Below, piece after piece: positions 31,779-42,424 of a stretch of DNA of 64,000 nt (positions within the stretch are counted from its first letter, which is position 1; the number at the start of each line of letters is the position of its first letter). Made by a program: the position numbers and the translations under genes. Under the pieces are notes generated by a model. That model was not told where the DNA came from and made no database searches. It was given only the letters and a program-made list of their open reading frames with translations. This DNA is from a virus, in IMG/VR virus record IMGVR_UViG_3300008108_005458, positions 1-64,000 of that record; one strand, 5' to 3'.

Positions 31779-31919
31779 TGTTGTGTGACGAAATTGGTAT
31801 ACGTGCTGGTCAGTACCCAAAAGAGTGTAGAATGGGGGAAACTGGCGGACATACTACAGACACGAGTAGTAGGAGATTAGGTCTTTAAATCCATGTGGGT
31901 TCGAATCCCACCACAACAG
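31779..31919 (+). tRNA. Oversized tRNA-Leu-like element, 141 nt
   Basis: Acceptor strands TGTTGTG and CACAACA pair, and the T arm (GTGGG-TTCGAAT-CCCAC) is perfect. Between them lie two D-arm-like segments (TGACGAAATTGGTATACG and GGGGGAAACTGGCGGAC) and about 50 nt more than a type II tRNA. I cannot assign an anticodon. It may be a tRNA with an insertion, a fusion of two tRNA genes, or a remnant. Confidence 0.4.
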
Positions 31920-32058: not shown

Positions 32059-32133
32059 GGCTCTATGGTGTAGCGGCAACATAGGAGACTCTAAATCTCA
32101 CAGTCACGGGTTCGAACCCCGTTAGGGCCACCA
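32059..32133 (+). tRNA. Amber suppressor tRNA (anticodon CUA)
   Basis: 75 nt including an encoded CCA. Acceptor GGCTCTA/TAGGGCC with discriminator A, U8, A14, D arm GTG/CAT, T arm ACGGG-TTCGAAC-CCCGT. Anticodon arm GGAGA-CTCTAAA-TCTCA has a G-A mismatch at 27-43 but four good pairs; the 7-nt loop has U33 and A37, giving anticodon CUA, which reads UAG. The charged amino acid cannot be read from sequence. Two genes upstream in the same operon carry early in-frame TAG codons. TAG is also used as an ordinary stop at 16553, 48416 and 51225, so suppression is probably partial. Confidence 0.8.
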
Positions 32134-39733: not shown

Positions 39734-40651
39734 TTAGTTTATTGTTTGAGTTTTAAATAATTCTTCGTTATACCTACTGATTTTTTCAGTCATATTAATA
39801 AGCTCCTCAAAAGTATCTGATAACTGATAAATTGTCATAGCGTGATTATCCAATTGATTCGCCAGGTCATCTAACTCACTAACATTATCTGGATATTCAC
39901 CGACTTCATACATCTCAACGATGTTATAAAACTTGTTATATTTATTTTCAAGATATTTTTGACTCTCATCCATTTTTTTTTGGGCGGCTTTCATCTTTTC
40001 CAAGTTTTCAAAAATGCTAACAAGTGATGAATTAACCACAGCTGATCCAAATTTTTCGATCAATGCTACGCCCATCTGGATATCTTTTTTTGCCTCAGCA
40101 ACGAATTCATCAATTTTTGATGGGTCGTATGAAATACCCTCTTCGTTTAATGAAACTATTTCATTTATTTGAAAAATTTTACCACCAGGTTTGTTGATCA
40201 TCTCAACTTCACGAGCATTTGTAACGGGTTCCTCAGAATCTTTGTAAACAAAGGTATCATATTTGTAAGGATCGTATGTTATTGATTTTGAACTACTTGG
40301 TGATGGAATGTCTGTTGATTGATATGGTTTAAAATCAATTAAATCACCAATAACGAATGCGTGCACATTCTTTGACATCTCAGCTCTAACTTTTTCTTTA
40401 CCGCCTTGGCGTACTCTAAATTCAACATTTTTAAGTTTTACATAATCAGCATGTGCTATTACTAAACTTTTATATTGAATTGAGAATGTTTTTTTATGGA
40501 GATTATAGTATACCATAACCCTTTTACCTATATGAGAATCCTCAGCAGGCGCTTCATCATCTGTACCAGCAAACATATCCAATTGGTCTTCATTCAAGCC
40601 CATCATTGAACGTATCTTAGCTATTTCTTCTGTTAATATTTCTTTTTTCAT
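39734..40651 (-). CDS. Putative packaged head protein, CTS type
   Basis: 305 aa. N-terminus MKKEILTEEIAKIRSMMG-LNE then DQ. After it lies a small beta domain (MVYYNLHKKTFSIQYKSLVI and EFRVRQGGKEKVRAEMSKN; about 40-130) resembling the phage 'N4-gp56 to DUF' type of hydroxylated-basic domains only loosely, and a long coiled-coil C-terminal part (LEKMKAAQKKMDESQKYLEN). Function unknown. Directly downstream of another CTS gene with no gap. Confidence 0.72.
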   Translation of the reverse strand: MKKEILTEEIAKIRSMMGLNEDQLDMFAGTDDEAPAEDSHIGKRVMVYYNLHKKTFSIQYKSLVIAHADYVKLKNVEFRVRQGGKEKVRAEMSKNVHAFVIGDLIDFKPYQSTDIPSPSSSKSITYDPYKYDTFVYKDSEEPVTNAREVEMINKPGGKIFQINEIVSLNEEGISYDPSKIDEFVAEAKKDIQMGVALIEKFGSAVVNSSLVSIFENLEKMKAAQKKMDESQKYLENKYNKFYNIVEMYEVGEYPDNVSELDDLANQLDNHAMTIYQLSDTFEELINMTEKISRYNEELFKTQTIN

Positions 40652-41443: not shown

Positions 41444-41462
41444 AATAATCTCGTATTTTTAT

Positions 41463-41469
41463 ATAAATA
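41463..41469 (-). promoter_or_regulatory. Late-type TATTTAT motif
   Basis: Sense GGTATTTATATAA, 19 nt upstream of the ATG at 41443. Confidence 0.55.
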
Positions 41470-41494
41470 CCATGAACTTTACATAAATTCCCCA

Positions 41495-41501
41495 TATTTA
41501 T
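41495..41501 (+). promoter_or_regulatory. Late-type TATTTAT motif before leader peptide
   Basis: CATATTTATTCC, 5 nt upstream of the leader-peptide ATG at 41507; same spacing as at 13804, 46224 and 46629. Confidence 0.5.
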
Positions 41502-41506
41502 TCCAG

Positions 41507-41569
41507 ATGCATCGAAAAAAACAAAATAAAAATAATATAATCATGCGAATGAAAACCTCTTCCTTTTGA
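41507..41569 (+). CDS. Possible leader peptide of synthetase-like gene
   Basis: MHRKKQNKNNIIMRMKTSSF, 20 aa, rich in Asn and Lys codons. Its stop codon lies in the loop of a terminator hairpin (41553-41583) that precedes the synthetase-like gene by 22 nt. This is the geometry of translation-controlled attenuation, where ribosome stalling at scarce Asn- or Lys-tRNA would favour readthrough. Confidence 0.45.
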   Translation: MHRKKQNKNNIIMRMKTSSF

Positions 41570-41583
41570 AGAGGTTTTTTTTT
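41553..41583 (+). terminator. Terminator/attenuator hairpin
   Basis: AAAACCTCTTC/GAAGAGGTTTTTTTT upstream of the synthetase-like gene. No plus-strand gene precedes it closely, so it most likely controls the gene that follows. Confidence 0.7.
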
Positions 41584-41605
41584 GCCCTAAAAAAACAAAA
41601 AAGAA

Positions 41606-42424
41606 ATGAAAAACACAGAAACTTACCACGAGCTGGTACAAAAAATGAGAAGCTTCTTCATCCAAAGAGGATTTAAAGAAGTACCAACACAATCAAGATT
41701 ATCAATCCTTGCCGCATGCGAAAACCCACACTCAGTTAAAACGTTTGAGTACAGCGGAGAAATCTGGCCACTACCACAAACTGGACAAATGTGGCTTGAG
41801 CATGAACTATTAATGAACCCTGAATGGGAAGGTGTATTCTGCATCTCAACATCTTACAGAGAAGAAAAGAACCCAATCCCTGGTAGACACGAATTAATCT
41901 TCCCAATGTTCGAGTTTGAATCAAAAGGTACAATGGAAGACCTGATCAAATTGGAAGGTGACCTATTGGCTCATCTTGGATTCGGTGATTCAATGCATGA
42001 AGTACAATACGAAGACGTATGTGAAGAATACGGTGGGGTTCCAATTCTGGAAGATGAACACGAATCAAGAATGTGGAAAGAGAAAGGAAACATCGTTTCA
42101 CTTCAACACTTCCCAATCAGAACAAACCCGTTCTGGAATATGAAACATGATCAGAATGGTATCTTTAATAAAGTGGATGTAATTATGTATGGACAAGAAA
42201 CAATCGGCTCCGCAGAGAGAAGCTGTGACGTGGAAAAGATGAAAGAGATGTTCTACGCCATCGAAGATGGCGGTTACGCTAGGAAACTGTTCGAATTATT
42301 CGGCAAAGACCGTGTGGAAGCTGAACTTGAAGAGTTTTTAAAATTTAATTTCTTCCCAAGATTCGGTGGGGGGATCGGAATGACTAGATTAGCAAGGGCT
42401 TATGAATTAATGAAGGGGGGGTAA
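41606..42424 (+). CDS. Minimal class IIb aminoacyl-tRNA-synthetase-like protein
   Basis: 272 aa, the catalytic core only; the N-terminal OB-fold anticodon domain of Asn/Asp/Lys synthetases is absent. Motif 2: ISTSYREEKNPIPGRHELIF followed by PMFEFE (about 90-116). Motif 3: FGGGIGMTRLARA near the C-terminus. RHELIFPMFEFE is nearest to Asn/Asp-type enzymes. It may aminoacylate a tRNA, or act as an amidoligase or asparagine-synthetase-A-like enzyme, since such paralogues lack the anticodon domain. Codons end in C more often than in neighbours, suggesting high expression. A terminator follows. Confidence 0.8.
   Translation: MKNTETYHELVQKMRSFFIQRGFKEVPTQSRLSILAACENPHSVKTFEYSGEIWPLPQTGQMWLEHELLMNPEWEGVFCISTSYREEKNPIPGRHELIFPMFEFESKGTMEDLIKLEGDLLAHLGFGDSMHEVQYEDVCEEYGGVPILEDEHESRMWKEKGNIVSLQHFPIRTNPFWNMKHDQNGIFNKVDVIMYGQETIGSAERSCDVEKMKEMFYAIEDGGYARKLFELFGKDRVEAELEEFLKFNFFPRFGGGIGMTRLARAYELMKGG

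Follow-up and report, generated by a model that had tools for sequence, protein, structure and literature searches.

Introduction

Attenuation by leader peptides is known from amino-acid genes of bacteria. In the amino-acid operon attenuators (the trpL, hisL, leuL, and pheST leaders), a short ORF rich in codons for one amino acid precedes an intrinsic terminator and a downstream gene matched to that amino acid. A somewhat different arrangement is found in Escherichia coli pyrBI, where the leader ORF enters the terminator and a ribosome close behind the polymerase blocks the hairpin; there is no antiterminator, and the signal is UTP, sensed via polymerase pausing. In a literature search of titles and abstracts, with partial coverage, no phage-borne or asparagine leader attenuator was found, and none on a phage synthetase.

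The locus described here is in positions 1 to 64,000 of IMG/VR virus record IMGVR_UViG_3300008108_005458, a 64,000-nucleotide stretch referred to below as the window. A promoter-like motif, a short ORF, a terminator, and a synthetase-like gene follow one another, and this layout is real and beyond chance. It shares with the trpL, hisL, leuL, and pheST leaders the short one-amino-acid ORF, the intrinsic terminator, and a probably matching downstream gene, but it is borne by phages, concerns asparagine, and appears to have a near-leaderless start; ATG and hairpin are 30–73 nt apart, and no antiterminator or alternative stems were found. Its likeness to pyrBI lies in the position of the leader stop, in or at the terminator, whereas the variable step in the phage leader would be the decoding of Asn codons. 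Our preferred reading, with a probability of about one half (0.52), is that it acts as a ribosome-dependent transcription attenuator coupling expression of an AsnRS-like gene to Asn codon decoding.

The Leader Region in the Window

All elements of the leader region are on the plus strand. The promoter-like element (41478–41501) consists of TTT at −17 to −15 plus TATTTAT (41495–41501), read from the sequence and falling within the consensus TATATTTAT. It is followed by a leader ORF of 20 codons (MHRKKQNKNNIIMRMKTSSF; 41507–41569), starting with the ATG at 41507 and ending in TGA at 41567–41569. The stop codon is overlapped by the intrinsic terminator (41552–41583 as a whole), made up of a hairpin with an 11-bp stem and a 5-nt loop (AAAACCTCTTC-CTTTT-GAAGAGGTTTT, 41552–41578) and a run of T (41575–41583). 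The synthetase-like gene (272 amino acids, 41606–42424) begins with ATG at 41606, 22 nt past the terminator. An earlier note on this DNA had picked out these same elements, from TATTTAT to the gene 22 nt beyond the T run, and all of them are in place; where it reported eight or more T after the hairpin, nine were counted.

The Asn codons of the leader are at −27, −21, and −18 relative to the hairpin. Folding energy of the leader RNA is −20.7 kcal/mol, compared with −8.1 (SD 2.5) for shuffled sequences (z −5.0). Apart from the terminator the leader RNA is without structure, and it is likewise unstructured when the 3′ arm is left out. The neighboring gene on the left points away from the leader, so the terminator is not the end of an upstream gene on the plus strand. 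Searches of the window with Rfam models returned only tRNAs at gathering score, with no T-box or riboswitch match.

An octamer resembling the T4 late promoter (TATAAATA, 41462–41469, plus strand; putative in role) is found upstream of the leader, and has 16 copies in the window vs. 6.7 (SD 2.4) expected. Unrelated proteins encoded at 40651 (−), 44951 (−), 36783 (+), and 41443 (−) have in common an N-terminal E-I-x-K-I/M-R-x-M-M-G-L-N-E motif. Internal proteins of T4 carry a capsid-targeting propeptide that is cut, and by analogy this motif is possibly such a propeptide, cut after LNE.

Distribution of the Layout in Related Phages

Four scans yielded 269 loci, the window included, with 104 distinct upstream regions among them. 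The order TATTTA, ATG, short ORF, hairpin with T run, synthetase gene is found in 66 of the 104, with a TATTTA-to-ATG spacing of 6–10 nt as a rule. Of 49 non-redundant synthetase genes, 26 are preceded by it, and of 663 further genes from these loci, none. The carriers are a group of phages, mostly uncultured.

Leader sequences vary strongly among clades, and the peptides are clade-specific (for example MKRYELYTPNNYIT, MVTKKVKRKLRNLNNNNIFKKS, MVKRKTKNKIKNKHSV, MNKNLINNK, and MIKLQNNNGDSNPF), the smallest leaders amounting to eight or nine codons and one hairpin. The 20-codon ORF described in the earlier note is indeed present in the window, but its length is private to it: the nearest relatives, which are near-identical phages, have 13 codons. 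In six of these (L001–L006) the codon following MHRKKQNKNNIIM is TGA, vs. CGA in the window; in L007 and L008 the leader ORF is MHRKKQNKNNIIT. The conserved portion of the window peptide is MHRKKQNKNNII.

There are exceptions to the general order. The terminator is found without a leader in three loci (L015, L024, L042), and some relatives have neither. In three others (L010, L019, L112) the ORF has no Asn codon ahead of the hairpin and runs through the terminator; these ORFs terminate at or just ahead of the synthetase start codon, and are possibly coupled to it in translation. In L009 the leader ATG overlaps the stop of the upstream gene (ATGA). The spacer from terminator to start codon is 16–20 nt in L046, L065, L071, L138, and others.

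The gene is mostly viral: it was found in only 1 of 247 genomes of the class, and a cellular origin was rejected on this count. The rare cellular homologs, L277 (a Chitinophagaceae assembly) and L272 (a Dependentiae assembly), adjoin pyrimidine genes (pyrD, pyrE/F), with purL also beside the homolog in L277; these neighbors were named by reading ORFs.

Asn Codons and Reading-Frame Constraint

The leader ORF is a short reading frame enriched in codons for one amino acid, asparagine. In-frame Asn codons number 71, against 40.5 (SD 5.7) expected from shuffles that preserve dinucleotides and keep the frame open; none of 1000 shuffles reaches the observed value. The excess persists when the synthetases are clustered below 85% identity (50 vs. 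29.0, 0 of 1000), and is also seen in a set of 15 leaders (p 0.004) and in eight very divergent ones (p 0.014). AAT occurs 101, 35, and 38 times in frames 0, 1, and 2 of the leaders, and in-frame AAY is higher in 21 of 23 leader clusters (p 3e-5), so the comparison of leaders in related phages suggested in the earlier note came out in favor of conserved Asn codons. For comparison, Asn makes up 6.8% of codons 2–16 in 657 other ORFs of the same loci. There is no positional bias of Asn codons inside the leader (p 0.16).

Lysine behaves differently. The peptide in the window is rich in both Asn and Lys, as first noted, but only Asn exceeds what A-rich DNA would be expected to give: Lys codons show no in-frame enrichment in dinucleotide shuffles of the leaders (51 vs. 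59.2 expected), and the suggested sensing of Lys-tRNA was rejected on this count.

Two other measures bear on the reading frame. Within clades, 23 of 56 single-step codon changes are synonymous when read in frame; the two alternative frames give 10 of 55 and 13 of 48. Measured from the start of the hairpin, the leader stop is between −15 and +18 nt in 19 of 22 clusters, whereas shuffles would put it there in 6.1.

The Synthetase-Like Protein

The 272-aa protein matches PF00152 (4e-16) and phrog_29758 (8e-97), the latter without assigned function. R85, E103, and R261 are invariant in 45 sequences, and the residues of motifs 2 and 3 are conserved. Its AlphaFold model (pLDDT 91.8) is that of a class IIb catalytic core with AsnRS closest in fold: the best matches are AsnRS 8tc8 and 8h53 (Z 26.7 over 245 residues), followed by AspRS and archaeal asparagine synthetase A (3rex, Z 24.3), with LysRS and GenX at about 23. 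With such small differences in Z from one match to the next, the substrate is not determined by fold alone.

Two known enzymes come closest. AsnRS has the class IIb core, is the top fold match, and is among the best sequence matches, but identity in the structural alignment is about 20–24%, and the match covers the catalytic domain only; the N-terminal OB-fold anticodon-binding domain is absent from the phage protein. Archaeal asparagine synthetase A (AS-AR; 3reu, 3rex, 3rl6) is likewise a class IIb core without an anticodon domain, of ~290 aa, and gives a full-length fold match with Z about 24, but is absent from the sequence matches of the phage protein. The complement of AsnA, AsnB, and AsnRS in 11 genomes that carry the gene favored neither asparagine synthesis nor tRNA charging. 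Since cyanophage members of the family have a tRNA gene as neighbor (see below), tRNA charging is favored over asparagine synthesis, and by its predicted activity the enzyme is most likely a minimal asparaginyl-tRNA synthetase.

Putative Promoter, Transcription Start, and Host

When 27 non-redundant leaders were aligned, they were found to share the bipartite sequence TTTT-N14-TATATTTAT. Elsewhere in these phage loci, 57 other genes have TATTTA 5–7 nt ahead of their ATG, as a sharp peak, in support of the leader ATG being a genuine start. The motif resembles the Bacteroidetes −7 box TAnnTTTG, located at −12 to −5 (PMC9723704, PMC6847099). If the same register holds, the leader ATG would be at the transcription start or about 2–6 nt after it, and because of this register the mRNA would be near-leaderless. 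The rarity of leaderless mRNAs in F. psychrophilum, at only 5.5% (PMC9723704), counts against such initiation.

Relatives occur in Cytophagaceae, Spirosoma, and Fluviicola assemblies; together with the promoter motif, this suggests a host in the Bacteroidota. In F. psychrophilum, amino-acid operons have been proposed to be under leader-peptide attenuation (PMC9723704), so hosts of this kind probably support such control.

A Possible Mechanism and Its Alternatives

As a transcription attenuator, the leader might work as follows. Transcription would begin at or a few nucleotides ahead of the leader ATG, giving an mRNA that is leaderless or nearly so. A ribosome initiating on the short ORF would have to traverse several Asn codons, most of them 9–33 nt before the terminator. 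With plentiful Asn-tRNA it would keep pace and reach the stop at or in the hairpin, covering the 5′ arm and letting RNA polymerase proceed into the synthetase gene; with slow Asn decoding it would be held upstream, the hairpin would close, and transcription would stop. The 16–20 nt spacer in several loci suggests that the synthetase gene is most likely reached by readthrough. Termination, readthrough, sensing, and the sign of control are all predictions from sequence. The loci that have the terminator without the leader or lack both, the Asn-free leader ORFs, and the failure to find a tRNA-Asn in the window tell against this reading.

The sign was considered by means of a footprint estimate in which the front of the ribosome is fixed, at its usual place, 12 nt beyond the first nucleotide of its A-site codon. 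Under this assumption, 4 nt or more of the 5′ arm would be covered in 18 of 20 leaders by a ribosome standing at the leader stop, in 5 of 20 by one at the last Asn codon, and in none by one at the first Asn codon. That a ribosome at the stop would cover the terminator and one at the first Asn codon would not suggests a device like that of pyrBI. Duplex energies for 23 clusters identified no leader segment that pairs with the 5′ arm clearly better than in shuffled leaders. The antiterminator fold on which the earlier note's model depended was thus not found, and this is not a classical trp/his attenuator, although the general layout it recognized, with an Asn-rich leader ORF, a terminator, and a synthetase-like gene, is conserved.

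Given a sensing attenuator, we favor readthrough upon good Asn decoding over the opposite sign by about 60:40. One would expect a charging or biosynthetic enzyme to rise on starvation, which makes the predicted sign odd; it would also be opposite to that of the known amino-acid attenuators. Their behavior is the main argument for an Asn sensor of the other sign, in which ribosomes stalled at Asn codons would block the terminator and the gene would go up when charged Asn-tRNA is scarce, much as the earlier note proposed. The five clusters in which a ribosome at the last Asn codon enters the arm fit this as well, but a cell short of Asn-tRNA should stall its ribosomes at the first Asn codon, and from most Asn codon positions a ribosome would not reach the terminator; with no antiterminator pairing above shuffles either, this version is not favored by the geometry, and we regard it as unlikely. 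The leader might also sense nothing, and serve as a translation-coupled damper in which a fixed fraction of polymerases passes the terminator and Asn codons merely slow the ribosome or are tolerated. Large variation between clades, the three Asn-free ORFs reading straight past the hairpin, and the ATGA overlap in L009 are what such a damper might look like. That Asn, alone among the amino acids tested, is so strongly enriched in frame across independent clades, and that the controlled gene is AsnRS-like argue against it, and we regard it as quite unlikely.

Promoter and terminator are each well formed, and could by themselves yield a small RNA of ~60–100 nt, with the synthetase gene expressed from its own promoter beyond the terminator; the gap of 16–20 nt in L046, L065, L071, L138, and others is too small for such a promoter, and the leader reading frame is itself constrained, making this improbable. 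Finally, the region is very A-rich and short ORFs are common in it, so that chance open frames might lie in the spacer ahead of an ordinary terminator. The Asn content beyond dinucleotide- and frame-preserving shuffles, the stop-position test, and a layout seen before 0 of 663 other genes render this explanation very improbable.

Cyanophage Relatives and a Long-Arm tRNA

The cyanophage “tRNA ligase” T4-GC 194 (P-SSM2, P-SSM7) belongs to the same protein family, at 54–55% identity, but has no Asn leader that could be seen; instead, a gene for a long-variable-arm tRNA-Asn follows it. Searching with the P-SSM7 protein added 80 loci, for a total of 84 with P-SSM7, P-SSM2, and two huge phages. Among the 78 with room for it, ARAGORN calls a tRNA-Asn within 150 nt downstream in 72, and four more have a related tRNA that it leaves untyped (covariance model, 77–84 bits). 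A long-arm tRNA thus follows the gene in 76 of 78 testable loci of this cyanophage-led set; the two huge phages have none. The tRNAs (L283:3278–3364, L284:3286–3373, and loci L287–L366) are ~10 nt behind the synthetase-like gene and 83–94 nt long with the extra arm, whereas the variable region of tRNA-Asn is normally short. Across an alignment of 27, pairing holds in 99.3% of pair cells, both partners vary in 17 of the 25 pairs, among them pairs of the variable arm, and the anticodon GUU, U1-A72, and G73 are invariant. Since the identity elements for Asn in bacteria are the anticodon and G73 (PMC9976931), this neighbor is a link from the family to asparagine that does not depend on the leaders. 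Gene and tRNA look like a dedicated synthetase–tRNA pair.

Searches of the window revealed no tRNA-Asn. A 141-nt tRNA-like element there (31779–31919), missed by ARAGORN and conserved in L397, L399, and L402, is matched by the covariance model; its acceptor, D, and T arms are intact, and its center has large inserts. It was rejected as the partner tRNA: the D arm is similar but there is no recognizable GUU anticodon loop.

Other tRNA-like sequences were also noted. Several copies of an element with acceptor AGTCAGG...CCTGACT are found in L376, L377, L378, L380, L390, and other large-phage loci; they total 90–131 nt, with a highly variable center, no obvious anticodon arm, and in most cases a tRNA-Leu-like D arm. 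The window has a cluster of 16 tRNAs, one of which (32059–32133) has a CUA anticodon and is called tRNA-Pyl by ARAGORN. Among the 53 stop-to-stop frames of >150 codons in the window, only 4 have TAG as their end.

Implications

A broader and more doubtful proposal would join the two phage groups: a phage-owned minimal AsnRS that reads the tRNA body instead of using an anticodon domain, paired with an orthogonal long-arm tRNA-Asn in cyanophages and placed under an Asn-codon leader switch without antiterminator in probable Bacteroidota phages, might sustain Asn decoding during infection if the tRNA-Asn or AsnRS of the host runs short or comes under attack. The compact synthetase with an adjacent candidate tRNA in cyanophages is of interest for genetic-code expansion and for phage takeover of translation. 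A device of this kind could hardly be simpler than the leader, which would offer a test of ribosome position alone as a transcription switch in a presumed Bacteroidota host.
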